Below are positions 41,637-61,650 of a DNA stretch of 64,000 nucleotides, piece after piece. The number at the start of each line of letters is the position of its first letter. Position 1 is the stretch's first letter. Under the pieces are notes generated by a model. That model was not told the origin of the DNA, ran no database searches, and saw only the letters and a program-made list of their open reading frames with translations. The stretch comes from Plantibacter sp. ME-Dv--P-122b. Its GTDB lineage: Bacteria > Actinomycetota > Actinomycetes > Actinomycetales > Microbacteriaceae. The position numbers were made by a program, and so were the translations under genes. The stretch spans positions 1-64,000 of the forward strand of contig NZ_JARVSC010000004.1 of the NCBI RefSeq assembly GCF_030209375.1, read 5' to 3'.

Positions 41637-42380
41637 CTAGGCGTTGCCGAGTGAGGTGTCGAGGAACGCGAGCGTCTTCACCCAGGCGTCGGCGGCAGCG
41701 TCCTCGCGGTAGGTGATCGTGTTGGTGTCGTTGAAGAAGGCGTGCCCGGCGTCGGGGTAGACGGTCGCGGTGAACTCGACCCGCGCGTCCTCCATCGTCG
41801 TGGTCAGCTCGGGCAGGCTCTGCATGAGGCCCTCGTCCTGGTCGCCGTAGAACGCGAGGACGGGGCAGGCGATGCTCGTCACGGCATCGGGCTCGGGCGG
41901 GTAGCCGTAGAACGGGACGGCGGCGCGGATGCGGCGGTCGGCCGCGGCGAGCGCGAAGCTGTAGCCGCCACCGAAGCAGAAGCCGACGACGGCGACGCGG
42001 CCGTCGATCCCCTCCTCGTCGAACAGGGCGTCGACGGCCTTCCCCAGGTACCCGAGCGCCTCCTCGGCGTACTCGGGCGACTTCGAGACCGAGAGCTTCT
42101 CGCGAAGCTTCGGTTGTGCCGCGGTCCGCGTCGCCTCGTCGCTGTTGAAGACGAGGCTCTCCAACTCCGCACCGATCTCGGGCGTGACGCCGGCACCGCT
42201 CAGGATGTCGGGCGCGATGACGAGGTAGCCCTCCGCGGCGAACCGGTCGGCGACGTCGGTGATGTGCGGTACGAGGCCCCAGATCTCGTGGATGAGCACG
42301 AGCCCGCCGCGGAGCTCGACGCCCTTCGGCGGGTCGGCGCGGTAGGCGGTGAGGCCCTTGGTCAGCGTGATGGTCGTCAT
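41637..42380 (-). CDS. Dienelactone hydrolase family protein
   Basis: This 247-residue alpha/beta hydrolase has a Cys nucleophile in GFCFGGG (C135), the acid in FYGDQDEG and the His in PDAGHAFFND, the dienelactone-hydrolase triad. It may open lactones in aromatic breakdown or act as a general esterase. No aromatic pathway is nearby. ATG 42380 (MTTITLTKG) is chosen; the extra 29 upstream residues are not family-like. Confidence 0.87.
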   Translation of the reverse strand: MTTITLTKGLTAYRADPPKGVELRGGLVLIHEIWGLVPHITDVADRFAAEGYLVIAPDILSGAGVTPEIGAELESLVFNSDEATRTAAQPKLREKLSVSKSPEYAEEALGYLGKAVDALFDEEGIDGRVAVVGFCFGGGYSFALAAADRRIRAAVPFYGYPPEPDAVTSIACPVLAFYGDQDEGLMQSLPELTTTMEDARVEFTATVYPDAGHAFFNDTNTITYREDAAADAWVKTLAFLDTSLGNA

Positions 42381-42450
42381 ATCGCCAGTGTCCCAGCCGA
42401 CGCTCCGCACCGGCTGGGGGTTGCGTCGGCCTCGGGAGTTATCCACAGAT

Positions 42451-42481
42451 TCTGAATCAGCATCCACACTGATGTTTCAGA
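42451..42481. promoter_or_regulatory. Inverted-repeat element upstream of the PKS locus
   Basis: TCTGAA (42451) and TTCAGA (42476) flank CATC and GATG arms in an AT-richer stretch between the divergent hydrolase and PKS genes. It is a candidate operator for the biosynthetic operon. Confidence 0.4.
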
Positions 42482-42633
42482 TGACTACAGTCGAGTTGTG
42501 GCGTGCCCACGGGCCGGCTCTCCTCACCGCGAGGCGGCCCGAAGACCTCGACACACTCCGCCAGGAGTCGTCGACATGCCGACCTGTCCCCCTCGTTCCG
42601 TCCGCGATCAACACCCTCGGAGGTTCTCTCGTC

Positions 42634-45600
42634 GTGCCCGTTCGACCCCTCGCCATCGTCGGCCTGTCCGCCCGCTTCGGCGGCGCAGCAGACGCACACC
42701 AGTACTGGCGCAACATCCTGGCAGCCCGTCGAAACGGCTCGACCATCCCCCGGTCGAGATGGGATCATTCGACCTTCTTCGCCCCGAACGACCCGCGGGC
42801 GGTGCATCACGCCTACTCCGATCAGGGCTCCTTCCTGGAGGGCGTCGACCGGTTCCCCGCCCGGTACTTCCGCATCCCGCCCAGTCGCGCACACGCGATG
42901 GATCCGCAGCATCGCCTGCTCCTCGAAGCCGCGCGGGCCGCCTGGATCGACGCCGGATTCGAACGTCGTCGCGTCGACCGGTCGTCCATCGGCGTGTTCG
43001 TCGGGATGGCCGCGAACGACTACCGCGAACTCACCTCCCTCCGCATCCGGGCGCAGCTCCTCGGCGACGACTCCGTCCATCCCGAGCCTGCCGAAGCGGA
43101 CCTCAGGGCGGCGATGGGAGCGCGTGTCGCCGGCGTCCGTCCGTTCCACGCGTTCTCGATGCCCGGATGCCTGCCGAACATGGGGCCGGCGCTGGTGAGC
43201 AGCACGCTCGACCTCGGCGGCCCGAGCTTGGCGGTCGACGCCGCATGCTCCAGCAGCCTCGTCGCGTTGCACCAGGCGATCGCCGCGATCCGATCCGGAC
43301 AGTGCTCGGCGGCGCTCGTCGGCGGTGTCAACCTGAGCCTCGTGCCCGACGCGATGGTCGCCTTCTCGCGGATCGGCGCGCTGTCGCGGAGCGGGGTGTG
43401 TCGGCCGTTCGACGGCGATGCCGACGGGTTCCTCCTCGGCGAGGGCGTCGGCATGATCGTCGTCAAACCGCTCGAGGCGGCCATCGACGACCACGACGAC
43501 GTCTACGCGGTCCTCCGCGGGTCCGGGCTGTCCAACGACGGCAAAGCCGAAGGACCCATGACGCCGACCGCGGACGGACAGCTGGCGGCGCTCCGCCGGG
43601 CATACGAGGACGCCGCGGCCGACCCCGCCGACCTGGGGGTCGTCGAGGCGCACGGCACGGCCACCCCGGTGGGTGACCGCACCGAGCTGGAATCGCTGGC
43701 GGCGTTGCGGCGTCTCGGGGCGTCACCGCACCGCACCACCACGGTCACGGCGGTCAAGGCGCTCGTCGGACACACGATGGCGGCGGCCGGGATCGCCAGC
43801 ATCGTCAAGGCGGCGCTCATGGCGAGGCATCGGGTCGTCCCCGGTCAACCACGCCTCCGTTCGACGGCCCACGCCGACGCCCTCCGCGACGGCCGCCTGG
43901 AGCTCGCCTCCCGCACCGCCGAACCGGGTGAGGACGGTCTGGGCCTCATCGGCGTCAGCTCGTTCGGGTTCGGCGGCACCAACGCGCACGTGGTGCTCGA
44001 ATCCCCGCCGACGCGAGCAGGTCGCGCCAGTCGGCGTGCCGCCGAGGGGCCAGCCGACGAAACGCCCCCACACCTGCTCGTGTTCTCGGCGGACGACCCC
44101 ACGCTGCTCGCCGAGCACCTCCGAGCGGTGCTCGCCGTCCTCGAGGCCGCCGACGCACCGTCCATCGCCGGCCTCGCACGGACCTTGAGTTCTCGAGCGC
44201 TCGCGAGCACCCGTCTGGCGATCGTGTGCCGCACCCCTGCCGAGCTGATCTCGGGGCTGTCGGCCGCTCTGGAGCAGCTCGGCGGGGGAGACACCGGGGT
44301 GATCTCCGCGGACGTCTGCACCGGTGTCCGCGTCGTCGAGGCCGCTCGGCGGATCGCGTTCGTCTTCCCCGGGCAGGGCAGCCAGACGCCACGGATGCAG
44401 TCGGACCTCCTCGACCGGTTCCCCGCCTTCCGTGCAGCGGCCGAGACCCTGAACGACCAGGTGATCGACGAGACCGGAGTCGATGTGCTCGCAGCGCTCC
44501 GCGCGACTGATGCCGACACCCCCTCCGGGATCGACCGTCTGGCGTCCACGGAGGTCTGCCAACCCGCGCTCGCGGTGACGGCGCTCGCCGCAGTCGCGCT
44601 CTTGCGCGAGATCGGTGTCGAGCCCGACCTCGTCATCGGGCACAGCGTCGGCGAGCTTCCCGCCATGGCGACGGCGGGCGCGCTCGATGCGCCGGACGCC
44701 GTACGGCTCGCCGCCGTCCGGGGACGCCACATGCGATCGGCCGAGACGCGACCCGGCGATGGCATGACGGCACTGGGCTGTGACGCCGAACGGGCGGACG
44801 CGCTCCTCACCGGGATCGACGACGTGTGGATCGCGGCGTGCAACGATCCCCGCCAGACCGTGATCAGCGGGACCGCTGAGGCCCTGCACGCCGTCTCGGA
44901 ACGCTGTGCCGAAGACGGGGTGGCCGCGCAACCGCTCCGTGTCGCGACCGCGTTCCACTCGCCGCTGCTCGAGCCGATCCGGCCGGCTCTCGTCGCGGAC
45001 CTGTCGCGGTTCCGCCCCGGTGCACCGCGGGTGCAGCTCGTGTCCACGGTGACGGGACGCACGGTCGAGACGAGCGAGGAGCTGGGTCGTCAGCTCGAGG
45101 AGAACGTCTTCTCCACCGTGCGTTTCCGCGAGGCGATCGAGTCGGCGTCCGCATCCGATGTCGGCGTCTACGTCCAGATCGGTGGAGGTTCGGCGCTGCT
45201 CGGGTCCATCCGACGCTCCCTGGGCGATGCGCCCGACGTCCACGTCATCCCGAGCAGCGCGTCGTCGCCGGACGATGCGGCGACCTTCCTCCGACTCCTC
45301 GGTCGGCTGACGGTGCTGGGTGCCGACCTCGACCTGGCATCGCTCGTGTCGCCCGACACCGCGGGTGTGGCGCTGCCGATCGCGCCGCTGCCGACCGAAC
45401 CCTACTGGGTCATCAGACCCGACGGCCCCGAGCCGACCACCGGCCCCCGAGAACCGACCTCCGAACCACACCGATCACCCTCCCTCGTCGAACAGGAACC
45501 ACGCTCCATGCATCACCACCCCGATGACCGGCCCGCCTCTCCGCTCGCCGAAGCGCCGTCGGCACGACCGTCGGCCAGCCCGCGAGCGACCAGCGCCTCG

Positions 45601-47364
45601 GCCGACCACCTCCCCGGACTGCTCGCCCTCATGAACCGCCAGCTGAGCCTCATCGAGGGGTCCGCCCAGGCCACCCGATCCGCCCAGACCGGTCAGGCCG
45701 ATCACGCGATCTCGACCACCGACGACTTCCGGTGGTCCACGGAGCCCGGCTCACCGCAGGCCGAGGTGGTCGCGCGGATGGGCGTCGCCGACGCGCGATC
45801 GCATCGCTCCGAGTCCGACGCGGTGATCCTCGGCATGGTCTCGCGGATCAGCGGCTTCCCGCTGGATCTGATCCGTCCCAACATGGACCTCATCGAGCAG
45901 CTCGGCTTCGACTCGTTGATGCTTCGTGAGCTGATCACGCAGCTGCACACGGAGTGGCCCGTCTTGCCGGCCCCGGCCCAACTCGGCGAGCGCTTCGCTG
46001 GACGGCCGACCGTGGAACAGATACTGGACACCGTGGGCTCCCTGTTGCACCCGTTCGCCGAGGAGCACCAGGTCAGGCTCCCGAAGCACATGACGCCACC
46101 GGCGGCTGCCGGTCTCCCCGCCGCGGTCGAGCGCCCGGCCCGCTGGACCGCGGCGGACGCCCGCATCGAGTCCTTCCCCGAGGCGGTCGCCATGCGGGAA
46201 CGCCGGCAGCAGACGGACCGGAACCCCTACTTCCTGCTCCATGAGGGGATCATCGACGCGACGACGACGATCGGCGACGCCCAGCTCGTGAGCTTCTCGA
46301 GCTACAACTACCTCGGTGTCACCGGCCACCCCGTGGTCGCCGAGACGATCGCCGACGCCGTGGCCCGATACGGCAGCTCGGTGTCCGCCAGTCGGTTCCT
46401 GTCCGGTGAGCGTCCGATCCACGCCGAGCTCGAGCAGGAGCTCGCCGACCTCCTCCAGGTGGAGTCCGCGCTCACCCTGGTGAGCGGTCACGCGACGAAC
46501 GTGAGCGTCATCGGCCACCTGGTGGAACCGGGCGACCTCATCGTCCACGACAGCCTCGCGCACGACAGCATCATCCAGGGGGCGAAACTCTCCGGAGCCA
46601 CCCGGCGGTCCTTCCCCCATAACGACCTGAGCGCACTCGACGACCTCCTCGGCGCGATCCGCGGCGGGTTCCGCCGGGTCCTCATCGTCGTGGAGGGCGT
46701 CTACAGCATGGACGGCGACCTCGTACCGCTCCCGGAGCTCATCGAGCTGAAGCGGCGGCACGGCGCACTGGTGCTCGTCGACGAAGCGCACAGCATCGGG
46801 ACGGTCGGCGCGAACGGGGGTGGGGTCGGCGAACACTTCGGCGTCGACCGCTCGGACATCGACCTCTGGTGCGGCACGATGTCGAAGTCGCTCGCCGGGT
46901 GCGGCGGCTACGTCGGTGGCACCGCCGCCGCGATCGACTACCTCAAGTACTCCGTGCCCGGGTTCGTGTACAGCGTCGGCATCACCCCGGCGAACGCGGC
47001 CGCGTCGCTCGCCGCCCTCCGGCTCATGCGCGACGAGCCCGAGCGCCTCAGTCGCCTGCGGCAGAACGCCGACCTTTTCCGCGAAGCGGCCCGGGCCGCC
47101 GGCATCGACATCGGCGACAGTGCCGACTCGCCCGTCGTGCCGTGCATCGTCGGCGGCTCGGAACGGGCGCTCGCCCTGGCAACGGCGCTCTTCGACCACG
47201 GCTTCAGCGTCAACCCGATCCTGTATCCGGCCGTGCCGGACGACCAGGCGCGGCTCCGCTTCTTCATCACCGCTGAGCACACCGCCGAGCAGATCCAGCG
47301 GGTCGTGGACATCACGGCATCCGAACTCAACCGCATCACCCACGACATCGAGGTATCCGCATGA
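42634..47364 (+). CDS. Polyketide synthase - alpha-oxoamine synthase fusion (KS-AT-ACP-AOS)
   Basis: This protein has about 1576 residues. Ketosynthase 4-455: Cys C205 in DAACSSSL, with His in VEAHGTATPVGD and VGHTMAAAG. Acyltransferase about 570-880: FPGQGSQ, GHSVGE with S671, and AFHS, pointing to malonyl-CoA. ACP about 1060-1130: GFDSL with S1094. The PLP alpha-oxoamine synthase at 1190-1570 has YNYLG, DEAHSIG and MSKSLAGCGG with K1418. It lacks KR, DH, ER and TE, so it should do one or a few condensations and release by decarboxylative joining to an amino acid. GTG 42634 has GGAGG upstream; ATG 42481 (51 more residues) is the alternative. Confidence 0.88.
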   Translation: MPVRPLAIVGLSARFGGAADAHQYWRNILAARRNGSTIPRSRWDHSTFFAPNDPRAVHHAYSDQGSFLEGVDRFPARYFRIPPSRAHAMDPQHRLLLEAARAAWIDAGFERRRVDRSSIGVFVGMAANDYRELTSLRIRAQLLGDDSVHPEPAEADLRAAMGARVAGVRPFHAFSMPGCLPNMGPALVSSTLDLGGPSLAVDAACSSSLVALHQAIAAIRSGQCSAALVGGVNLSLVPDAMVAFSRIGALSRSGVCRPFDGDADGFLLGEGVGMIVVKPLEAAIDDHDDVYAVLRGSGLSNDGKAEGPMTPTADGQLAALRRAYEDAAADPADLGVVEAHGTATPVGDRTELESLAALRRLGASPHRTTTVTAVKALVGHTMAAAGIASIVKAALMARHRVVPGQPRLRSTAHADALRDGRLELASRTAEPGEDGLGLIGVSSFGFGGTNAHVVLESPPTRAGRASRRAAEGPADETPPHLLVFSADDPTLLAEHLRAVLAVLEAADAPSIAGLARTLSSRALASTRLAIVCRTPAELISGLSAALEQLGGGDTGVISADVCTGVRVVEAARRIAFVFPGQGSQTPRMQSDLLDRFPAFRAAAETLNDQVIDETGVDVLAALRATDADTPSGIDRLASTEVCQPALAVTALAAVALLREIGVEPDLVIGHSVGELPAMATAGALDAPDAVRLAAVRGRHMRSAETRPGDGMTALGCDAERADALLTGIDDVWIAACNDPRQTVISGTAEALHAVSERCAEDGVAAQPLRVATAFHSPLLEPIRPALVADLSRFRPGAPRVQLVSTVTGRTVETSEELGRQLEENVFSTVRFREAIESASASDVGVYVQIGGGSALLGSIRRSLGDAPDVHVIPSSASSPDDAATFLRLLGRLTVLGADLDLASLVSPDTAGVALPIAPLPTEPYWVIRPDGPEPTTGPREPTSEPHRSPSLVEQEPRSMHHHPDDRPASPLAEAPSARPSASPRATSASADHLPGLLALMNRQLSLIEGSAQATRSAQTGQADHAISTTDDFRWSTEPGSPQAEVVARMGVADARSHRSESDAVILGMVSRISGFPLDLIRPNMDLIEQLGFDSLMLRELITQLHTEWPVLPAPAQLGERFAGRPTVEQILDTVGSLLHPFAEEHQVRLPKHMTPPAAAGLPAAVERPARWTAADARIESFPEAVAMRERRQQTDRNPYFLLHEGIIDATTTIGDAQLVSFSSYNYLGVTGHPVVAETIADAVARYGSSVSASRFLSGERPIHAELEQELADLLQVESALTLVSGHATNVSVIGHLVEPGDLIVHDSLAHDSIIQGAKLSGATRRSFPHNDLSALDDLLGAIRGGFRRVLIVVEGVYSMDGDLVPLPELIELKRRHGALVLVDEAHSIGTVGANGGGVGEHFGVDRSDIDLWCGTMSKSLAGCGGYVGGTAAAIDYLKYSVPGFVYSVGITPANAAASLAALRLMRDEPERLSRLRQNADLFREAARAAGIDIGDSADSPVVPCIVGGSERALALATALFDHGFSVNPILYPAVPDDQARLRFFITAEHTAEQIQRVVDITASELNRITHDIEVSA

Positions 47365-49517
47365 CGAACCACTCCAGAACGACACCCAGACGACGGGCGG
47401 TGATCACGCTCCTGATCGGTCTGGTGTTCGCGATCGTGGCGGGCATCGCGGGGGCCGACGTCCTCGACAACCTCAAGACGGGCGGGTTCGACGACCCCCA
47501 GTCCGACTCCGTGGCCGCGGCTGATGTCCTCGCCGACCGGTTCCCCGGCAGCGACCCCAAGCTCGTCCTCGTCGTGGACGTCCCCGACGGACTCGACAGC
47601 ACCGCCGGCAGGGAGGCGCTCGCCGACATCGTGGGCGCCGTGGACGAGGTGGACGGCGCCAGCGTCACCGGCTCCTACGCCGACTCGGAGCAGCTGCGGA
47701 GCGGCACCGACCGCGGGGTCGTGCTCGTGGCGCTCGCCGGAGACGAGGACACCGTGCAGCGCGCGACCACCGCGCTCCGCGGGACGATCACCGAGGAGGT
47801 GACGTCGGCAACGGTCCGGTTCGGCGGCATCGCGGGGATCAACGACGACCTGAACGCGCAGGTCAAGACGGACATCATCCTCGCGGAGACGATCGCCATC
47901 CCGATCACGCTCGTGCTGCTGTTCTTCGCGTTCCGCGGTGTGGTGGCCGCACTGCTGCCGGTCGGTGTCGCGGGCGTCACGATCCTCGGTTCCCTCGGCC
48001 TGCTGAACGTGGTCGCGCAGCTCACCTCGGTCTCCCTGTTCGCGGTCAACCTGGTCACCGCGTTGGGCCTCGGACTCGCCATCGACTACTGCCTGCTGTT
48101 CCTCACCCGCTATCGGGACGAACGCTCGGGCGGAGCCACCGACGAGGAGGCGTTGCGGATCGCTCGGCGGACGACCGGCCGGACCATCGTGTTCAGCGGC
48201 GTCGTCGTCGCCGCGGCGCTCGCCACGCTGATGCTGTTCGACCAGTACTTCCTGCGCTCGTTCGCCATCGCGGGACTCGTCATCGTGGCCTGCTCCGTGG
48301 TGGGCGCGGTCGTCCTGCTGCCCGCAGCCCTCACCCTCCTGGGTCGCCGGATCGACTGGGGCCGACTGCGCTCCCGCCGCCCGGCCGGGGCCGAGGGCCG
48401 GTTCTGGTACCGGGTGGGCGACCACGCGTATCGCCGTCCGTGGTTGGCGGTGCCCGTGATCGCACTGCTCATCGCCATGGCCGCGCCGTTCGCGCACGCG
48501 GAGTTCGGGGTGCCCGACGAACGGGTGCTCCCCGCCGACGCCGAGAGTCGTGTCGTGGCGGACATCATGCGGTCCGACTTCGACGTCGCCGAGGCGGACG
48601 CCGTCTCCGTCGTCACCGAGGACTGGGCGGGGACGGACCGAGAGCTCGACGAGTACGCCACCGAACTCTCCTCGATCACAGGCGTCGAGGCCGTCACGAC
48701 GCCCCTCGGCAGCTTTGTCGACGGACGCCTCGTCGTCCCGGCCGATGCGCGGACGGAGCAGCACTTCCGCGACGGTTCGGCGCTCTGGCTGCAGGTCGCG
48801 ACCGACGTCGTCCCGTACTCGCCCGAGGGCTCGGAGCTCGTCCGCGACGTCCGCGCGGTGGACCCTGGAGCCGGCTCGACCGTCCTGGTCGGTGGCCTCG
48901 CGGCGCAGATGATCGACATCGGTGACTCCATCGCGGCGCGGCTGCCGTTCGCCGCCGCGGCCATCGCGCTCATGACGCTGATCATCCTCTTCCTGTTCAC
49001 GGGGAGCGTGCTGCTGCCGATCAAGGCGCTGGTGCTGAACGTGGTCGGGCTGGTCGGCATCCTGGGCGTCATCGTGTTCCTCTTCCAGGACGGCAACCTC
49101 TCGGACGTGCTCGGCTTCACCCCGTCGCCCATCGCCATCTCGATCCCGATCCTCCTGTTCTGCATCGCCTTCGGGCTCTCGATGGACTACGAGGTGTTCC
49201 TCCTCGCTCGCATCCAGGAGCGGTTCCGGGCCACGGGCGATCTCGCGGAGGCGGTGCGGAGCGGGCTCGGAGCGAGCGGCCCGATCATCACGGCCGCTGC
49301 AGCGATCCTCGCGGTGTCGTTCTTCGCCATGGCGACGTCAGGGGTGTCGATCATCAAGATGCTCGGCATCGGTACCGGCATCGCGATCCTCATCGACGCC
49401 ATCCTGATCCGCGGCGTGCTCGTCCCCGTCTTCATGCGCGTCGCCGGACGATACAACTGGTGGGCGCCGCGGTGGCTCGCGGCGATCCACCGCCGCATCG
49501 GGATCACGGAGGGCTGA
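47361..49517 (+). CDS. MMPL/RND-type exporter
   Basis: This 718-residue membrane transporter has 12 helices in two halves and two large extracytoplasmic loops (about residues 35-170 and 390-540). The MMPL family proton-relay Asp residues appear in LGLAIDYCLLFLTRYRDE and FGLSMDYEVFLLARIQE. It overlaps the PKS stop by ATGA, so it is made in step with the synthase. It likely exports the product or gives self-protection. Confidence 0.93.
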   Translation: MTNHSRTTPRRRAVITLLIGLVFAIVAGIAGADVLDNLKTGGFDDPQSDSVAAADVLADRFPGSDPKLVLVVDVPDGLDSTAGREALADIVGAVDEVDGASVTGSYADSEQLRSGTDRGVVLVALAGDEDTVQRATTALRGTITEEVTSATVRFGGIAGINDDLNAQVKTDIILAETIAIPITLVLLFFAFRGVVAALLPVGVAGVTILGSLGLLNVVAQLTSVSLFAVNLVTALGLGLAIDYCLLFLTRYRDERSGGATDEEALRIARRTTGRTIVFSGVVVAAALATLMLFDQYFLRSFAIAGLVIVACSVVGAVVLLPAALTLLGRRIDWGRLRSRRPAGAEGRFWYRVGDHAYRRPWLAVPVIALLIAMAAPFAHAEFGVPDERVLPADAESRVVADIMRSDFDVAEADAVSVVTEDWAGTDRELDEYATELSSITGVEAVTTPLGSFVDGRLVVPADARTEQHFRDGSALWLQVATDVVPYSPEGSELVRDVRAVDPGAGSTVLVGGLAAQMIDIGDSIAARLPFAAAAIALMTLIILFLFTGSVLLPIKALVLNVVGLVGILGVIVFLFQDGNLSDVLGFTPSPIAISIPILLFCIAFGLSMDYEVFLLARIQERFRATGDLAEAVRSGLGASGPIITAAAAILAVSFFAMATSGVSIIKMLGIGTGIAILIDAILIRGVLVPVFMRVAGRYNWWAPRWLAAIHRRIGITEG

Positions 49518-50525
49518 GTGGACGCGCGATTCAGCGGCTCATCGGCCGATGACGAGCTCTCGGAGCTCGTGTCCGAGGCGGCTCGTGCGGCGAACGCCCA
49601 CAACACACAGCCGTGGGTCGTGGACCGCCAGGGCGACGAACTCGTCCTCCGACGGGACCGCACTCGCACCCTCGGCGCGAGCGATCCGCGAGGACGCGAC
49701 ACGATGCTGTCGTTCGGGGCGTTCGTCGAGTCGCTCCTCATCTGCGCGGCGTCGGCCGGTGTCGGACTGCGGTTCGAGAGCGCTCACGATGGCGCTGAGG
49801 CGGTCGATGAGATCGGTCGGTTCTCGCGTCGTCCGGAGTGCCACAAGACGACGTTCTCCTCGGCGGACGTCCGTGGTCGACGCGTCTGGCGAGGGAAGTG
49901 GAAGGACGGCGCCCCCGCGCCTGAGCTCCTCGCGGAGGCTGCGGCGGAGGCGGAGCACTCCGGCTTCCGGCTCGTCTCGATGCCGACGCGGGACGCCCGC
50001 TCGCTCCTCGTGCGAGCCAACCGGTGGTTCTTCGGCGACCCGCCGATCGTCGCCGAGCTCCACCGGTGGACCCGACTCTCACCGCGACATCCGGCGTACG
50101 AGGAGGACGGCCTCAACGATGCGATGCTCGTGCTGTCGAAGATCGAGCGCGTGGGCCTGCGGACGCTGATCAGCCCGTCCGTGTTCCGCGCGCTTCGCGG
50201 GCTGGGGCTGCCCGGGGTGTTGGCGAGGATGTCGGCCACCGCGACCCAAGGGTCCGGTACCGTCCTCGGGGTCATCGGGCCCACCGGAGCCCAGCAGGAA
50301 CTCGCCGCGGGGAGACTGCTCACCCGGCTCTGGCTCGGATTCCAGCGTCATGGCCTGTACGTGCATCCGCAGAGCGCACCGCTCGACTGCCCCGAGACCC
50401 GGCAGGCACTCGACGAGCGCTGGCAGGTCGCGCCGGATGAGCAGCTCGTCGCCTGGTTCCGCGTCGGCATCCCCGCCGCAGAACCGGACACCCGTCCGGA
50501 TTCCCCACGTCGTACGTTCCGGTGA
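49518..50525 (+). CDS. Nitroreductase-family (Acg-like) flavoprotein
   Basis: This 335-residue protein has the nitroreductase FMN-binding start EAARAANAHNTQPWVV and a C-terminal TQGSGTVLGVIGPTG...LLTRLWLGFQRHGLYVHP stretch, as in Acg-type members. The GTG start directly abuts the MMPL stop. It may oxidise or reduce the aminoketone product, for example dehydrogenating a cyclised intermediate. Acg proteins may only sequester flavin, so catalysis is uncertain. The final 20 residues are disordered. Confidence 0.75.
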   Translation: MDARFSGSSADDELSELVSEAARAANAHNTQPWVVDRQGDELVLRRDRTRTLGASDPRGRDTMLSFGAFVESLLICAASAGVGLRFESAHDGAEAVDEIGRFSRRPECHKTTFSSADVRGRRVWRGKWKDGAPAPELLAEAAAEAEHSGFRLVSMPTRDARSLLVRANRWFFGDPPIVAELHRWTRLSPRHPAYEEDGLNDAMLVLSKIERVGLRTLISPSVFRALRGLGLPGVLARMSATATQGSGTVLGVIGPTGAQQELAAGRLLTRLWLGFQRHGLYVHPQSAPLDCPETRQALDERWQVAPDEQLVAWFRVGIPAAEPDTRPDSPRRTFR

Positions 50526-50571
50526 ATCCGCCGCGGATCGACCGATCGACAGGCGTCCGGCCGGTCCGACC

Positions 50572-51258
50572 GTGACCGGAGTCGCAGCCGCGCTGGTCGG
50601 TGCGTTGCAGCATCGGGTGCCCTCGGGCGTCGTCGTCTCGGCGGCCGACGGCGCAGTGCCCGGGCCGTTCCGAGGCCGTCCGGCCCCGTCCGGCCGCAGC
50701 CCAGAGTCCCGCTCGGCCCGCGACTGCGCCCGGGCGGCCCTTGCGGTGCTCGGGCGCGGTCACGCGGACATCCCGACGGGGGAGGGCGGGCAACCCGTCT
50801 GGCCGACCGGTTTCGTCGGGAGTCTCTCGCACTGCCCCGGACTCCGGGTCGCGGCCGTCGGTCGCATCGGTGTCGCGAGCGCCATCGGGATCGACGTCGA
50901 GGTGCACCGCCCCATCCGTCCCGCCGTCGCGGCGACGATCGTCTGCGGGAGCGAGGTGTCCATGCTCGCGCGGCTCGCTTCGAGCCATCCGGCCGTCGCG
51001 TGGAGCGCCGTGTTGTGGAGCGTCAAGGAGAGCGTCTTCAAGGCGTGGTACCCGCTCACCGGGCGATGGGTCGACTACGCGGCATGTGAGGTGGTGATGC
51101 ACCCGGATCGGGGCTCGTTCGACGCGAGGGTCGTCGCGCCGGCCGACCTGAGAGCGCAGCCGACGACGCCGCGCACCTTCGCCGGCCGATGGGTGGTGGT
51201 CGGGGCCCACGTCTGCACCGTCGTCATCGTCCCGGCCTGGCGGAGACGGAAGGCATGA
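50572..51258 (+). CDS. Sfp/EntD-type 4'-phosphopantetheinyl transferase
   Basis: This 228-residue enzyme has the Mg-binding motif GIDVE (D108, E110) and WSVKESVFKAWYPLTG (K152, E153), the two signatures of Sfp/EntD transferases. It also has the FVGSLSHCPGLRVAAV segment. It attaches the pantetheine arm to the ACP serine (S1094) of the PKS. GTG 50572 is the only start before the conserved region. Its presence shows that the cluster carries its own activation enzyme. Confidence 0.9.
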   Translation: MTGVAAALVGALQHRVPSGVVVSAADGAVPGPFRGRPAPSGRSPESRSARDCARAALAVLGRGHADIPTGEGGQPVWPTGFVGSLSHCPGLRVAAVGRIGVASAIGIDVEVHRPIRPAVAATIVCGSEVSMLARLASSHPAVAWSAVLWSVKESVFKAWYPLTGRWVDYAACEVVMHPDRGSFDARVVAPADLRAQPTTPRTFAGRWVVVGAHVCTVVIVPAWRRRKA

Positions 51259-51322
51259 TCTGCCGATTCCGCTGACGCGGGTACCGTTGACGACGATGGC
51301 GCAGACCGCAGGAGGAGGGGCC

Positions 51323-51823
51323 ATGCCGGACGAGGAACGGACGACGACGGACTGGCGCGTGCTGGTGGCAGCCCTCGCGAACGACGACGCACGGACGGTG
51401 TACGCGCAACTCGTCCTCGGTCAGGAGCCCGACCTCGGCGGTACGCAACGCGCAGCGCGAAGCGTCGAGCGGAGTGTCCGGACGCTGTCCCGGGCGGGCC
51501 TGCTGGACGACGACGGGCGCGTCTCGGGCGTGGTGTTCCGCGATCTGCTCGCAGCCGCCGCACCACCGAGGCGCGACGGGATCGACCGCTTCCTGGTCGA
51601 CGGTCGGATCGTGCAGTACCCGTCGAATCCCGCCGAGCGGCAGGCGCTGATGCAGCGCGTCGCGGCGTCGGCGCTCCAGCCGGGTGAGGTGGTCGACGAA
51701 GCCGAGATCAACGAGCGACTGGCTGCTTTCCACGACGACGTCGCGGCACTCCGGCGATACCTCGTCGACGCGCAGCTCGTCGAACGGACGCGCTCGGGGA
51801 CCGAGTACGCGCTCGTCACCTGA
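51323..51823 (+). CDS. DUF2087-domain protein, probable regulator
   Basis: This 166-residue protein has an N-terminal helical, wHTH-like part (WRVLVAALANDDARTVYAQLVLG). The C-terminal DUF2087 domain is IDRFLVDGRIVQYPSNPAER...FHDDVAALRRYLVDAQLVER. DUF2087 is often fused to ArsR-type helix-turn-helix domains, so a regulatory role is likely. ATG 51323 is preceded by AGGAGGAGG; ATG 51296, 8 bases after TACCGT, is the alternative. It is last in the biosynthetic operon or separately transcribed. Confidence 0.75.
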   Translation: MPDEERTTTDWRVLVAALANDDARTVYAQLVLGQEPDLGGTQRAARSVERSVRTLSRAGLLDDDGRVSGVVFRDLLAAAAPPRRDGIDRFLVDGRIVQYPSNPAERQALMQRVAASALQPGEVVDEAEINERLAAFHDDVAALRRYLVDAQLVERTRSGTEYALVT

Positions 51824-51977: not shown

Positions 51978-53609
51978 TCAGGCGCGGATGTCCTTCGTGA
52001 GTTCGGCGACGAGGGCGGCCCGCTGCTCGCGGGTGGACGGTCGACCTTCGGCGTCGGGACGCTCCTGCCACGGGAACGGACCCGCGGCGCGGCGGTACTC
52101 GACCCCGAGGGCGTCGAGGCGGGCGAGGTGCTGCTGCAGCCGCGCCTCGAAGCCCGCGAGGTCGCGCTCGCGGCCGACCCAGGCGACCTCGGCGAGGGCG
52201 CACAGCCGCGGGTACGCCTGGTAGTCGATCACGCGGGCGGAGTCCATGTGCTCGGTCCAGATGTTCGCCTGCACCCCGATGACGTGCTCGGCCTGCGCCT
52301 CGGTCAGCTCCGCCGGCACCGGGTCGAAGGTGTACACCTCCGCGACCGTCAGCGGCGGCCCGACCGGGATCGGCTCACCCGGCAGCTCCGACTCGCGGTA
52401 GTCGAGGTAGACGCGGTCGTCCGGGCAGGCGATGACGTCGTAGCCCTGTCGTGCGGCGGCGACCGCACCGAACTCGCCGCGCCACGAGGCGACGGTCGCG
52501 TCCTTCGGGAGTCCACCGCCCTCGAGGATCTCGTCCCAGCCGTACAGGCGTCGGCCGGCTGCGGACAGGTGCGCCTCGAGCTGACGGATGAACCACGCCT
52601 GCAGTTCTTCGACGGTGCCGAGTCCGCGCTCGGCCATGAGCGCCTGCGTCCGAGCACTCGCCGCCCATCGGGTCTTCTTCGCCTCGTCGCCACCGACCCC
52701 GATGAACGTCGACGGGAACAGCTCCATGACCTCGTCGAACACGGTGCGGAAGAACACGACCGTCTCCTCGCCCATGTCGAGGATCGCCTCGTTGATGCCC
52801 CACCGCGTCCACACCGACGGCTCGTCCGCGTCCTGCGCGACGTCCGGCACGCCCAGCTCGGGGTACGCGGCGATGATCGCTCGCGCATGACCCGGCAGGT
52901 CGATCTCGGGGACGACCGTGATGGACCGCTCAGCGGCGTACGCGACGATCTCGCGCAGATCGTCCTTCGTGTAGTAGCCGCCGTGTGGGCGGCCGTCGCC
53001 GGGGGCCTGCCGCGCTGCGCCGTGCTGGCTCTCGGTCCGCCACCCGCCGACCTCGGTGAGCTTCGGGAAGGCGTCGATCTGGATGCGCCAGCCTTGGTCA
53101 TCGGTGAGGTGGAAGTGCAGGACGTTGAGCTTGTGACGTGCGGCGAGGTCGATGAACCGCAGCACGTCGGACACGGGGAGGAAGTGCCGGGCCACGTCGA
53201 GCATGACGCCGCGCCAGCCGAAGCGCGGGGCGTCGTCGATGGTGGTCGCCGGGACGGTCCAATCGACGCCCGGGACGAGCGCGCGGCGGTTGACCGAGGG
53301 CGGGAGGAGCTGGGTGAGCGTCACCGCGCCCGAGAAGGCCCCGGAGGCGTCGGCCGCGATGATGCGCACGCCGTCCGCGTCCACCACGAGCCGGTAGCCG
53401 CCGGCCGCGACGGTGTCGTCGTGGATGAAGGCGATGCTGTCGGTCCGCAGGTCGATCCGGGCGTCGAGGTCGAACCCGGTCGACGTCTGCAGCACCCCGC
53501 GCAACCAGCGGGTCGCGGCCGTGAAGCGGCGGTCACCGCCGAGCCCGGTCGTCTCGCTCAGCGTGAAGGCGCCGTCGTGCTGCTGGATGGACGCGGGCAG
53601 TGGAAGCAT
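51978..53609 (-). CDS. Beta-N-acetylhexosaminidase (GH20)
   Basis: This 543-residue enzyme has an N-terminal GH20b domain (about 1-120) and the catalytic barrel with the D308-E309 pair in GVGGDEAKK. Also present are HFHLTDDQGWRIQIDAFP and the C-terminal W-containing IQANIWTEHM-like segment (VQANIWTEHMDSARV). It removes terminal beta-GlcNAc/GalNAc from chitin, peptidoglycan or glycoprotein fragments. It has no signal peptide, so it likely acts inside the cell after oligosaccharide uptake. GAGGAGAG precedes ATG 53609. The upstream gene is a deacylase fragment sharing its promoter. Confidence 0.93.
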   Translation of the reverse strand: MLPLPASIQQHDGAFTLSETTGLGGDRRFTAATRWLRGVLQTSTGFDLDARIDLRTDSIAFIHDDTVAAGGYRLVVDADGVRIIAADASGAFSGAVTLTQLLPPSVNRRALVPGVDWTVPATTIDDAPRFGWRGVMLDVARHFLPVSDVLRFIDLAARHKLNVLHFHLTDDQGWRIQIDAFPKLTEVGGWRTESQHGAARQAPGDGRPHGGYYTKDDLREIVAYAAERSITVVPEIDLPGHARAIIAAYPELGVPDVAQDADEPSVWTRWGINEAILDMGEETVVFFRTVFDEVMELFPSTFIGVGGDEAKKTRWAASARTQALMAERGLGTVEELQAWFIRQLEAHLSAAGRRLYGWDEILEGGGLPKDATVASWRGEFGAVAAARQGYDVIACPDDRVYLDYRESELPGEPIPVGPPLTVAEVYTFDPVPAELTEAQAEHVIGVQANIWTEHMDSARVIDYQAYPRLCALAEVAWVGRERDLAGFEARLQQHLARLDALGVEYRRAAGPFPWQERPDAEGRPSTREQRAALVAELTKDIRA

Positions 53610-53638
53610 CGGTGGTTCTCTCCTCGGGTGCTGATGGG

Positions 53639-53708
53639 CCGTTCTCAGGACATCTGCGGCGCGGCTGGCCGGCAACCCGGTGACACACCGGAGGACTCCT
53701 GAGAACGG
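53639..53708. repeat. CTCAGGA palindrome family, copy 5
   Basis: CCGTTCTCAGGA (53639-53650) and TCCTGAGAACGG (53697-53708) pair perfectly. It lies between the amidohydrolase fragment and the GH20 gene, so it may attenuate GH20 expression. Confidence 0.75.
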
Positions 53709-53725
53709 TCCCGGACGGTGCGGGG

Positions 53726-54076
53726 TCAGTGCGGGTGGTCGACGAGGGTGGTGAGGCGGTCGGCGATCAGCGTATCCGAGACGACGGCGAGCGGCGACTG
53801 ACCGGCCTCGGCGGCGAGCTCGGCGATGCTCCGGCCGACGAGCTCGCGGAGGTCGGGGTGCGACACCTGCGCGATGCGGACGGCCGACCAGTCGACGCGC
53901 TCGTCGACCGGCGGCTCGGCGAAGGCGCGTTCGAGTTCGTCGACGATGGCGTCGTCACGGAGGCGGTCGATGACGGCCTCGCCGCCACCGCCGGTCACCC
54001 AGGTGGGCAGCAGGGCGGTGAGGGCGGTTCCGCGGAGGACGCCGCCCGGAAGGATGGTGCCGGTGCCGTGATCCAT
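53726..54076 (-). pseudogene. Fragment of an N-acyl-D-amino-acid deacylase
   Basis: This 116-residue frame aligns only to the middle of the deacylase family. LTALLPTWVTGGGGEAVIDRL matches LSALLPSW...IERL, and HPDLRELVGRSIAELAAEAG matches [20 protein letters not shown] of the gene at 3963-5603. It then ends at LIADRLTTLVDHPH, before the C-terminal metal region. No metal-ligand motif is present. Yet it has a consensus promoter, the shared operator, GGAGAG and an ATG, so the 5' control region is intact. A remnant after internal and C-terminal deletions is most likely; a retained small protein is possible. Confidence 0.7.
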
Positions 54077-54101
54077 GGGCCGCTCTCCAGTCGTCGCGCG
54101 A

Positions 54102-54129
54102 TTGCGCATGTTGCAACGGGGGTTGCGTC
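54102..54129 (+). promoter_or_regulatory. Operator-like TTGC repeat element, second copy
   Basis: TTGCGCATGTTGCAAC, five bases, then TTGCGTC matches the element at 1897-1924 with two differences outside the 5-bp spacer. It sits between the transcription start and the fragment's ribosome site, where a bound repressor would block elongation. Confidence 0.65.
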
Positions 54130-54140
54130 GATGCCCGACA

Positions 54141-54169
54141 ACTGTAAAGGGTCCGAACAAACGTGTCAA
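54141..54169 (-). promoter_or_regulatory. Consensus promoter of the GH20 transcript
   Basis: On the minus strand TTGACA (54169-54164), a 17-bp spacer and TACAGT (54146-54141). It reads through the fragment into the GH20 gene. Confidence 0.7.
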
Positions 54170-54207
54170 CGGTGTGGAGACGGGGTGGCGGGGAGGGTCG
54201 CTCCGCA

Positions 54208-54370
54208 CTTCGACAGGCTCAGTGACCGGTGGAGGTGGCTCGGTGACCGGGGAGGGTTGCTCGGCACTTCGACAGGCTCAGTGACCGGGGTTGCGGCCCA
54301 GGGACCGGGGTTGCGGCTCAGCGACCGGGGTTGCAGCTCAGTGACCGGGGTTGCGGCTCGGTGACCGGGC
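54208..54370. repeat. TTCGACAGGCTCAG array 3
   Basis: Two full heads (CTTCGACAGGCTCAGTGACC) at 54208 and about 54271 are followed by units of 19-20 bp (GGGGTTGCGGCTCAGYGACC). The array lies between the DUF5060 stop and the GH20 promoter. Confidence 0.8.
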
Positions 54371-54374
54371 GCGG

Positions 54375-56117
54375 CTACTCCACCAGGCGGAGGCGGACCG
54401 CCATGAACTGGCGGCCGGGCAGGTCGACCCGGACGGTACCGGTGTGGGTGCCCGGCAGGGTCTCGACCGTCATGTTCCAGGTGTCGAGCACGTCGACGTG
54501 GAACTCGCCCTCGGGGAGGAAGACGTTGCGGAACCGCGGCCGGTTGAAGCCGAAGTAGCCGATGACGTAGCGGCCGGCGAGCCCGCCCCACGGCACGTCC
54601 CAGTCGCCGGGGAGCGGGTCGAGGACGCCCGTCGGGGACTCGGCCGAGATGCGTTCCAGGAACGCGATGCGGTCGGGACTCGAACCGATGAGCGGCCCGC
54701 CCTTCGACCAGAACAGCTCCTCCCGGTCGTTGAGGTAGGTCTCCCCGTGACCGACGTAGCCGCCGCGGATCGCGCCCTCCCAGAACCGTCGCACCATCTC
54801 CTCGCCGGTGATGTTGCCCCAGCCCTGGTCGATGTCGCCCTCATAGGCGCACTCGTCGATGACGATCGGCTTGCCCCACTGCTCGCGCCAGGCGTCGGTG
54901 TTCTCCGCGGTCCGGTAGACGTCGACGCGCTGCACGCTGCAGTGCGTGATCCAGGGCTTCGTGTAGTCGTAGAACCCCTGGCAGTTGTGGATGGAGTTGA
55001 GGTGGCCGTGCGGGTCCTCCGCGCCGACGACCGCTGCAAGCCGCTCCCAGTCGTCGTTCGTCTTCGCCCAGAGCAGGTCGTACTCGTTCGCCATCGACCA
55101 CCACACGTTCGCGAACGCGGCGAGCCGACGGACGGCGTAGCGGAGGTACCGTTCGTCGACGGCCGGACCGAGGTCAGCGAAGCCCCAGCGGTCGTAGGCG
55201 TGGAAGAGGATCAGGTCCGCCTCGATGCCGAGCGCGCCGAGCTGGGTGATGCGCCGCTCGAGGTTCGCCCAGTACGCCGGGTCGAAGCGCTCGTGGTCGA
55301 ACCCATCGGCGAGCGAGCCGACGAAGGGGAACGTCTCCGGCTCGTTCGCGTTGTAGAGGTACGACTTCGGGAACACGCACATGCGGATCTTCGTGAACGG
55401 CGCGGTCTCCAGGGCGCGCAGCGTCTGCTCCTGCAGCTCCTCGGGCTGGTGCGTCCAGGCGTAGGCGGTCGTGCCGAGCGGGCGGTGGCGGGTGCCGTCC
55501 GCATGGGCGAAGTGGAAGCCGTCGACGCGCACCGGTCCGTGGCTGCCCGTCGCCGCGGCCGACACGGTGAACGCGCCTGCGACGCCGTCGAGTGATCGGG
55601 CGGTCGAGCTCGTGGTGAACGACCACTCGCCCTGCTCCTCGGCGAGCAGCCGCACCAGGTACCGGCCGTCGCCGTCGTAGAACCCGCCGACGGTGAGCTC
55701 GCGTGCGCCGTTCGTGAACGTCGCGCCGAGTTCCACATTGACGAACGGGTTGCCGTGCGACGGCCCGTCCAGCCGGATCTCCACGACGCCGTACTGCGGG
55801 ACGTCGGCGGGGACCGTCAGGGTCGCCGAGCCGCGCGGGACGTCATCGCCCTCGTAGTCAGAAGCGGGCTCGATCGCAGCGCCGTAGGGTGCGCGGGCGT
55901 CAGGGCCGTCGTCGACCTGCGCGAGTGCCGCCCACAGTCGATCCTTCGCCGCGTCGTCCTGCAGTTCCGGCACGATCGCCGACAGCTGCCCGAGCCGGAT
56001 GCTGCGGAACTGCTTGGCCATCGGCGAGGCGGCGATACCGGGCAGGAACTGCTCGAGGACGGTGCGACCCGCCGGGCTCTCGATGACGTCTCCGAAGGCG
56101 GAACTGCGGTCGAACAT
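54375..56117 (-). CDS. DUF5060/DUF4038-type glycoside hydrolase
   Basis: This 580-residue protein has about 90 helical residues and a beta-sandwich DUF5060 domain (about 95-200, with YGVVEIRLDGPSHGNPF). An apiosidase-like TIM barrel runs from about 205 to 480, with catalytic Glu candidates E345 in WWSMANEYDLLW and E422 in VIDECAYEGD. A DUF5605 beta domain is at the C-terminus. Family members cleave plant side-chain sugars such as apiose or rhamnose-linked glycans. It has no signal peptide and lies in the rhamnosidase-glucosidase operon, so it probably acts on imported oligosaccharides. Confidence 0.83.
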   Translation of the reverse strand: MFDRSSAFGDVIESPAGRTVLEQFLPGIAASPMAKQFRSIRLGQLSAIVPELQDDAAKDRLWAALAQVDDGPDARAPYGAAIEPASDYEGDDVPRGSATLTVPADVPQYGVVEIRLDGPSHGNPFVNVELGATFTNGARELTVGGFYDGDGRYLVRLLAEEQGEWSFTTSSTARSLDGVAGAFTVSAAATGSHGPVRVDGFHFAHADGTRHRPLGTTAYAWTHQPEELQEQTLRALETAPFTKIRMCVFPKSYLYNANEPETFPFVGSLADGFDHERFDPAYWANLERRITQLGALGIEADLILFHAYDRWGFADLGPAVDERYLRYAVRRLAAFANVWWSMANEYDLLWAKTNDDWERLAAVVGAEDPHGHLNSIHNCQGFYDYTKPWITHCSVQRVDVYRTAENTDAWREQWGKPIVIDECAYEGDIDQGWGNITGEEMVRRFWEGAIRGGYVGHGETYLNDREELFWSKGGPLIGSSPDRIAFLERISAESPTGVLDPLPGDWDVPWGGLAGRYVIGYFGFNRPRFRNVFLPEGEFHVDVLDTWNMTVETLPGTHTGTVRVDLPGRQFMAVRLRLVE

Positions 56118-56206
56118 GGATCTCCTGTGATCAGCCGAGCAAGTCGGCGGCGGGTGCTACTGGTGCAGGCGGTGCGAGTGTTGCACGTGGAACGGTCGAG
56201 TGGGGG

Positions 56207-61509: not shown

Positions 61510-61534
61510 GCGATGTGGGTCCGTTCTGGGGTGG

Positions 61535-61650
61535 CCCTTCGACAAGCTCAGGGACCGGTTGTGGGTCTCAGGGACCGGTTGTGGGTCTCAGGGACCGGAT
61601 GGTGGGTCTCAGGGACCGGATGGTTGTCCTTCGACAAGCTCAGGACCGGT
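61535..61650. repeat. TTCGACAAGCTCAG array 4
   Basis: Heads CCTTCGACAAGCTCAGG at about 61536 and 61627 bracket four units of GGTTGTGGGTCTCAGGGACC (20-22 bp). It lies inside the operon between the ABC ATPase and the GH3 gene. Confidence 0.85.

Follow-up and report, generated by a model that had tools for sequence, protein, structure and literature searches.

A compact cassette in the genome of Plantibacter sp. ME-Dv--P-122b (3.92 Mb, 14 contigs) encodes a real, conserved, and selected pathway that is a variant of the known logic coupling polyketide synthases (PKSs) to alpha-oxoamine synthases (AOSs) and not a new kind. Within the window, the 64,000-nucleotide stretch of DNA analysed here, a single PKS carries ketosynthase (KS), acyltransferase (AT), acyl carrier (ACP), and AOS domains, in this order by Pfam match and in one open frame. 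Pfam matches to an exporter of the MMPL family, a flavin oxidoreductase, and a 4'-phosphopantetheinyl transferase (PPTase) adjoin it on the same strand, confirming the cluster reported in a preliminary description of this DNA (Table 1). The interesting parts are a KS that stands apart from that of RedL and an Acg-like flavoenzyme tied to PKSs of this type. The nearest named matches to the PKS, from Plantibacter sp. VKM Ac-1784 and P. flavus, share 89% identity across it, and a limited search of papers under open licence did not return a description of the cassette.

Table 1. Genes and domains of the Plantibacter cassette, with positions in the window
Feature	Position	Strand	Basis
KS-AT-ACP-AOS PKS, 1576 aa	42634..47364	+	Pfam, open frame, GC3; predicted GTG start
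Ketosynthase domain	42643..43848	+	Pfam (P0001 99-500), E 3.5e-75
Acyltransferase domain	44359..45324	+	Pfam (P0001 671-992), E 5.8e-60
Acyl carrier domain, single	45823..46026	+	Pfam (P0001 1159-1226), E 1.2e-4
Alpha-oxoamine synthase domain	46174..47361	+	Pfam aminotransferase fold, E 5.7e-47; best PDB match SPT 3a2b
MmpL3-like RND exporter (MMPL family), 718 aa	47361..49517	+	Pfam, NCBIfam, PDB
Acg-type FMN oxidoreductase ('nitroreductase', P0003), 335 aa; subfamily adjoining such PKSs	49518..50525	+	
4'-phosphopantetheinyl transferase (P0004)	about 50572..51258	+	Pfam; predicted GTG start
DUF2087 protein, doubtful member	51287..51823	+	Pfam

Gene boundaries and selection

An open PKS frame extends from 42349 to 47364, and GC1, GC2, and GC3 are 0.73, 0.52, and 0.88, respectively, from the GTG at 42634 to the stop at 47364. 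This GTG is most likely the start of the gene, judging from a one-base shift upstream of it in two Plantibacter relatives and from the annotated S. anthocyanicus protein, which begins at the KS. A 95-codon extension upstream (from 42349) was rejected as coding sequence because it is not conserved and meets the same shift. At about 42587 the window has one extra base compared with these relatives (L005 and L006, probably the same records as the G585 and G050 contigs), which opens the PKS frame up to 42349, and both relatives have an in-frame ATG in this region. The PKS and MMPL genes overlap by 4 bases, while the MMPL and nitroreductase genes abut.

Comparison of the window with L005 gave dN/dS values of 0.21 for the PKS, 0.08 for the MMPL gene, and 0.29 for the nitroreductase gene, on which basis all three look to be under purifying selection. 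The start and the genes had been placed correctly in the preliminary description, while its end at 51823 takes in the DUF2087 gene, the membership of which is doubtful because a match occurs near the cluster in four of the five Plantibacter genomes and is missing there from the fifth; a dN/dS of 1.49 for this gene (window against L005) was set aside as probably reflecting a mis-registered pairing. Synonymous difference between the window and L005 is about 0.10 for the AOS and MMPL (46174-49517), resembling the neighbouring hydrolase, and 0.28-0.35 for the KS, AT, and oxidoreductase, which may mean that recombination within Plantibacter has made a mosaic of the cluster. Promoter and terminator scans of the cluster returned no matches (shuffles expect 0.3 and 1.6), a null made uninformative by the G+C of the window. 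Downstream, the minus strand carries a run of glycoside hydrolases (51978-61545), including GH20, apiosidase-like, rhamnosidase, and GH3 members.

Domains of the synthase

The KS retains its motifs (Cys in DAACSSS, His in HGTAT and GHT) and is accompanied by a Pfam match to the KS extension. The AT motifs GHSVGE and AFHS are also intact, and the AFH motif, read as in the available text of PMC3908369, points to a malonyl-type AT. The ACP scores 22.6 bits against a Pfam cut-off of 20.8 and has its phosphopantetheine serine in GFDS. By alignment, the AOS conserves the PLP lysine (SKSL) and DEAHS, placing it in the AOS family, and NCBIfam models rank it as BioF (348 bits) over SPT (315 bits) over glycine C-acetyltransferase, all under their cut-offs. 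As proposed at the outset, the PKS has no reductive or thioesterase domain (no KR, DH, ER, or TE match in Pfam at E 0.001), and no Pfam match to a loading domain or to an N-terminal loader of acyl-AMP ligase and ACP was found in P0001.

Distribution of the cassette and its layout

The AOS domain occurs at 97-100% identity in five of seven Plantibacter genomes, and the PKS, MMPL, oxidoreductase, and PPTase keep the same order in all five (the window, L074, L075, L100, and L101). A family sample of 199 genomes yielded eight matching genomes at E 1e-60, three of them Plantibacter (≥97%) and the other five with 34-36% identity in frames of 396-503 aa. At least 8 of 396 genomes in an order sample matched at 1e-80 and at least 25 of 394 in a class sample at 1e-70, both counts including the window's own genome and both being lower bounds, with at most four candidates scored per genome. 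Matches in the order sample include three genomes from one genus of another family (L095-L097; AOS 55-56%, frames of 1259-1286 aa) with a related KS-AT-AOS arrangement, in which the KS and AT were matched and no ACP, MMPL, or oxidoreductase match was found, and four genomes at 43-49% (frames of 409-906 aa); both of the loci fetched from these four (L098 and L099) have the KS and AT several kilobases away from the AOS.

Layout was surveyed at 29 loci (4 Plantibacter and 25 others), a non-random sample because the loci were chosen as matches to the PKS or its AOS. The idea that the four-domain layout had not been seen in actinobacteria did not survive this survey, as KS, AT, ACP, and AOS follow in this order in 14 of the 25 non-Plantibacter loci (L007, L008, L054-L061, and L064-L067) and RedL ends in the same layout. 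Among these 14, L007 and L008 are near-identical, and L056 and L065 have the PKS split across frames in sequences that contain N. Two further loci (L062 and L063) lack an AT match, and the remaining nine have the AOS on a gene separate from the KS or a different order. An oxidoreductase match was present in five of the 14 (L007, L008, L056, L061, and L065), with a 73-residue piece in L057 that is 41% identical to the end of P0003, the remainder of that gene not being detected, and an MMPL match of ≥41% also in five (L007, L008, L055, L061, and L065), with a weak match (26%) in L064; the two co-occur in four. Of the nine remaining loci, two have an MMPL (L070 and L072) and none an oxidoreductase match. 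The set of PKS, MmpL3-like, and Acg-like genes is also found in S. anthocyanicus plasmids and two further actinobacterial genomes, and the full trio outside Plantibacter represents two or three lineages, since L007 and L061 are sisters in both trees (see below) and L008 is a near-copy of L007.

Other neighbours vary. A PPTase follows the PKS in L055 (Pfam), a homologue of it adjoins the PKS in L060, and an AMP ligase adjoins the PKS in L058 and L059. In L054 (6332-13544), the KS-AT-ACP-AOS protein adjoins a single protein that combines AMP-ligase and aldehyde-dehydrogenase-type domains, and in L062 (4215-10743), an ATP-grasp ligase-type protein and an epimerase are neighbours of a KS-ACP-AOS protein in which no AT was detected.

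Phylogeny of the AOS and KS domains

Trees of the AOS (37 rows) and KS (27 rows) represent part of the fetched loci, with L065 left out of the AOS tree (gap). The fused AOS domains fall together with RedL, RkpG, and several AOS enzymes of PKS loci in a 22-row AOS clade (97/92), while KBL, ALAS, BioF, two SPTs, and RedN (38-39% identical to the Plantibacter AOS) fall outside, along with L073 and L076, which have a PKS nearby. The Plantibacter AOS lies inside this clade at a position that the tree does not resolve, and long branches lead to BioF and to both SPTs. In the KS tree, a 100/100 clade of 12 rows comprises RedL, the AMP-ligase-linked KSs (L058 and L059), RkpA, and the KSs with a separate AOS; the Plantibacter KS and the other fused KSs, L054 included, are outside it, and the tree does not resolve whether they form one clade. 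FabF, L095, RkpA, and the RedL of L066 are long branches of unsure placement. The 100/100 branch separates the Plantibacter KS from that of RedL, one of the two RedL rows being long, and measured along the tree its closest KSs are those of L056, L065, and L057, all oxidoreductase-linked (53% identity). With a KS apart from that of RedL, a single condensation is not guaranteed.

Exporter, flavoenzyme, and PPTase

In both NCBIfam and PDB, the exporter matches MmpL3 best, though the protein scores 345 bits against a cut-off of 1400 on the MmpL3 model (NF052608); the MMPL proteins of S. anthocyanicus and L061 are 54-58% identical to it. To our knowledge, mycolates are not expected in the genus Plantibacter.

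The oxidoreductase resembles the Acg family (NF047509; PDB 2ymv) in its HNTQPW motif and overall length, but falls under the model cut-off of 199 bits (144.6 bits; 133-148 bits for P0003 and three PKS-linked homologues), has a conserved C-terminal HPQS...DCP stretch, and adjoins AOS-PKS genes. Its sole PDB match is Acg 2ymv, with an alignment that falls largely within the first 85 residues, where the HNTQPW motif lies. Proteins of the Acg type may be FMN binders that lack ordinary catalytic activity. P0003 was searched against 16 genomes or records, 15 with an AOS-PKS and one (G120) a Plantibacter without, and all seven matches of 42-100% identity adjoin an AOS-PKS. The next-best match (30%, E 8.2e-14) lies elsewhere in G366, no match was found at 1e-5 in G120, G337, and G485, and six AOS-PKS holders (G452, G524, G560, G303, G521, and G498) have only weak matches elsewhere in the genome (best E 1.3e-11; 27-39%, with the top values coming from short pieces). 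From this search, the Acg-like enzyme belongs to a subset of the AOS-PKS group and not to the whole of it.

All five Plantibacter genomes that carry the cluster have the PPTase. Its description as dedicated agrees with its place beside the PKS and is an argument from position, because the window genome has three ACPS-family proteins, this one included.

Amino acid choice

In the available text on a thermophilic AOS (ThAOS), Val79 is named as one determinant of which amino acid is used and is equated with Ser102 of S. paucimobilis SPT (PMC11906848). PDB entries 7poa and 8s1y, which we infer to be ThAOS and its V79A variant, differ by Val/Ala just before a conserved Arg, and this difference fixed the selectivity column in the alignment. 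The Plantibacter AOS has Ser in this column, as do the serine users SPT and RedN, and is in this respect compatible with the use of L-serine; RedL and ALAS have Thr and KBL has Val. Judging from this residue, serine is more likely than glycine to be used, a pointer weakened by its being a single position, by Ala in the oxidoreductase-linked relatives that cover the column (L007, L056, L057, and L061), and by Ser in the aligned column of E. coli BioF, an alanine user.

Proposed pathway and alternatives

We put at about even the chance that the cassette is a compact route to a nitrogen-containing, lipid-like metabolite through one malonyl extension, AOS release, ring closure, flavin adjustment, and export. 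The PPTase would arm the ACP, and the KS would be primed in trans with an acyl starter drawn from the cell's fatty acid synthesis, as acyl-ACP or acyl-CoA. Malonyl would be loaded by the AT, and one condensation would give a beta-ketoacyl-ACP that the AOS would capture with a PLP-bound amino acid, serine being more likely than alanine or glycine. Loss of CO2 and release would yield a 2-amino-3,5-diketone (a 1-amino-2,4-diketone with glycine), predicted to close to a 5-alkyl pyrrolin-3-one or 3-hydroxypyrrole that would bear a 2-hydroxymethyl group with serine. The Acg-like flavoenzyme may adjust the oxidation state, much as RedK does in the prodiginine pathway though it comes from a different family, and the MmpL3-like pump would export the amphiphile. 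The starter, the single condensation, the amino acid, the ring closure, and the flavin step are those that we infer. This pathway is supported by the domains and motifs, the module order of RedL, an AOS nearest to SPT in PDB with Ser at the selectivity position, the tied Acg-like gene, the shared MMPL, and purifying selection; counting against it, the BioF model scores above SPT and no starter-supplying enzyme was found among the window neighbours scanned, which were part of the window's genes.

AOS-type release of a beta-keto chain, as anticipated in the preliminary description, is supported by the family of the domain and, together with a five-membered ring, by analogy with RedL, PigH/RedN, and TamD. 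As far as the available texts describe, PigH/RedN releases a beta-ketothioester with serine to give 4-hydroxy-2,2'-bipyrrole-5-methanol (PMC11188435), and L-serine use and ring closure are proposed for the ACP-AOS protein TamD (PMC4698589). What these enzymes would share with the Plantibacter AOS is release of an ACP-bound beta-keto chain with serine ahead of ring closure, whereas KS and AT are absent from their protein. Of the two fates first suggested for the product, the RedL module is known to lead to a pyrrole-like ring, which may apply here by analogy, while dimerisation to a pyrazine was set aside as unlikely on chemical reasoning, because a 1-amino-2,4-diketone should normally cyclise within the molecule before it can dimerise.

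It is unlikely that the product is instead a sphingoid-type lipid, for which the chain would be reduced in trans by fatty-acid enzymes and the AOS would join it with serine to give a base resembling 3-ketosphinganine. Pseudomonas SgaAB follows such a route, and rhizobial RkpA/RkpG perhaps does too. The AOS is nearest to SPTs in PDB, sharing with SPT (3a2b; plant LCB2) the fold family, PLP lysine, DEAH/DDAH motif, and selectivity Ser, but SPT takes free acyl-CoA, whereas the Plantibacter AOS is fused to a PKS and, given this fusion, would be fed by its own ACP. In SgaAB (P. fluorescens) and RkpA/RkpG (S. meliloti), a type I PKS also passes its chain to an SPT-like AOS, which is a separate protein there. 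A PKS and AOS pair on S. meliloti pSymB (L081, 265-9185), presumably RkpA/RkpG-like, has an AOS that is 48% identical to that of Plantibacter and belongs to the same AOS clade (97/92). According to the accessible part of PMC12134224, a bacterial PKS and AOS can make sphingolipids and SgaB has SPT activity. Against a sphingoid product, the Plantibacter PKS has no KR, DH, or ER match, compared with the KS-AT-DH-ER-KR-ACP order given in the available text for a mono-modular PKS from a sponge, of a type that has been compared with RkpA (PMC3908369), the cassette has no ketoreductase, and the KS falls outside the clade of the RkpA-type KS (the RkpA row being a long branch), to which it is just 31% identical and the neighbours of which differ.

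We also doubt that the cassette is a glycine-using, RedL-like module making a 2-alkyl-4-ketopyrroline or alkylpyrrole, whether this is the final product or one half of a larger pigment. L066 and L067 are likely prodiginine clusters with KS-AT-ACP-AOS as the C-terminal module of RedL, L067 from its protein matches to RedL, RedN, RedJ, and RedH, and L066 by homology. L067 encodes a protein with AMP-ligase, ACP, KS, AT, AOS, and terminal epimerase-type domains, as well as an ACP-AOS protein, a thioesterase, and a PPDK-type protein, which we take to be RedH. The C-terminal module of RedL has the same domain order as the Plantibacter PKS, with 48-50% identity in the AOS and 36-41% in the KS. The chemistry of its pyrroline is known: in the texts available, RedL combines dodecanoyl and malonyl units and releases them with glycine as 4-keto-2-undecylpyrroline, which RedK converts to 2-undecylpyrrole (PMC11188435 and PMC12654105). 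RedL differs, however, in its N-terminal AMP-ligase and ACP (L067), in a Thr-Pro selectivity site where alignment shows Ser-Arg in the Plantibacter AOS, in a KS of another clade (100/100), and in partner genes that are not those of the Plantibacter cassette. Assignment of the cluster as a prodiginine cluster was rejected on the placement of the KS and because no prodiginine partner gene occurs among the window neighbours scanned.

An iterative non-reducing PKS, in which several malonyl condensations and AOS release would lead to an aromatising amino-polyketone, accords with the absence of reductive domains and with a KS apart from single-condensation RedL, but is improbable given that the cassette has no cyclase or aromatase and that its exporter resembles the lipid exporter MmpL3.

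Implications

We tentatively suggest, at somewhat under an even chance, that a loader-less PKS-AOS branch, equipped with an Acg-like flavoenzyme and an MmpL3-like pump of its own, makes an undescribed class of lipids, hydroxymethyl-pyrrolinones or aminodiketones, and that Streptomyces and other actinobacteria export them as Plantibacter would. In a single step, AOS release makes a carbon-nitrogen product out of a polyketide chain, and a three-to-four-gene cassette without a loading domain is small enough for reconstitution. MmpL3-like pumps and Acg-like flavoproteins have been studied mostly in mycobacteria, and the pathway would supply a natural substrate context for both; if it is correct, the Acg-like protein would be among the first members of its family to have a defined reaction in biosynthesis.
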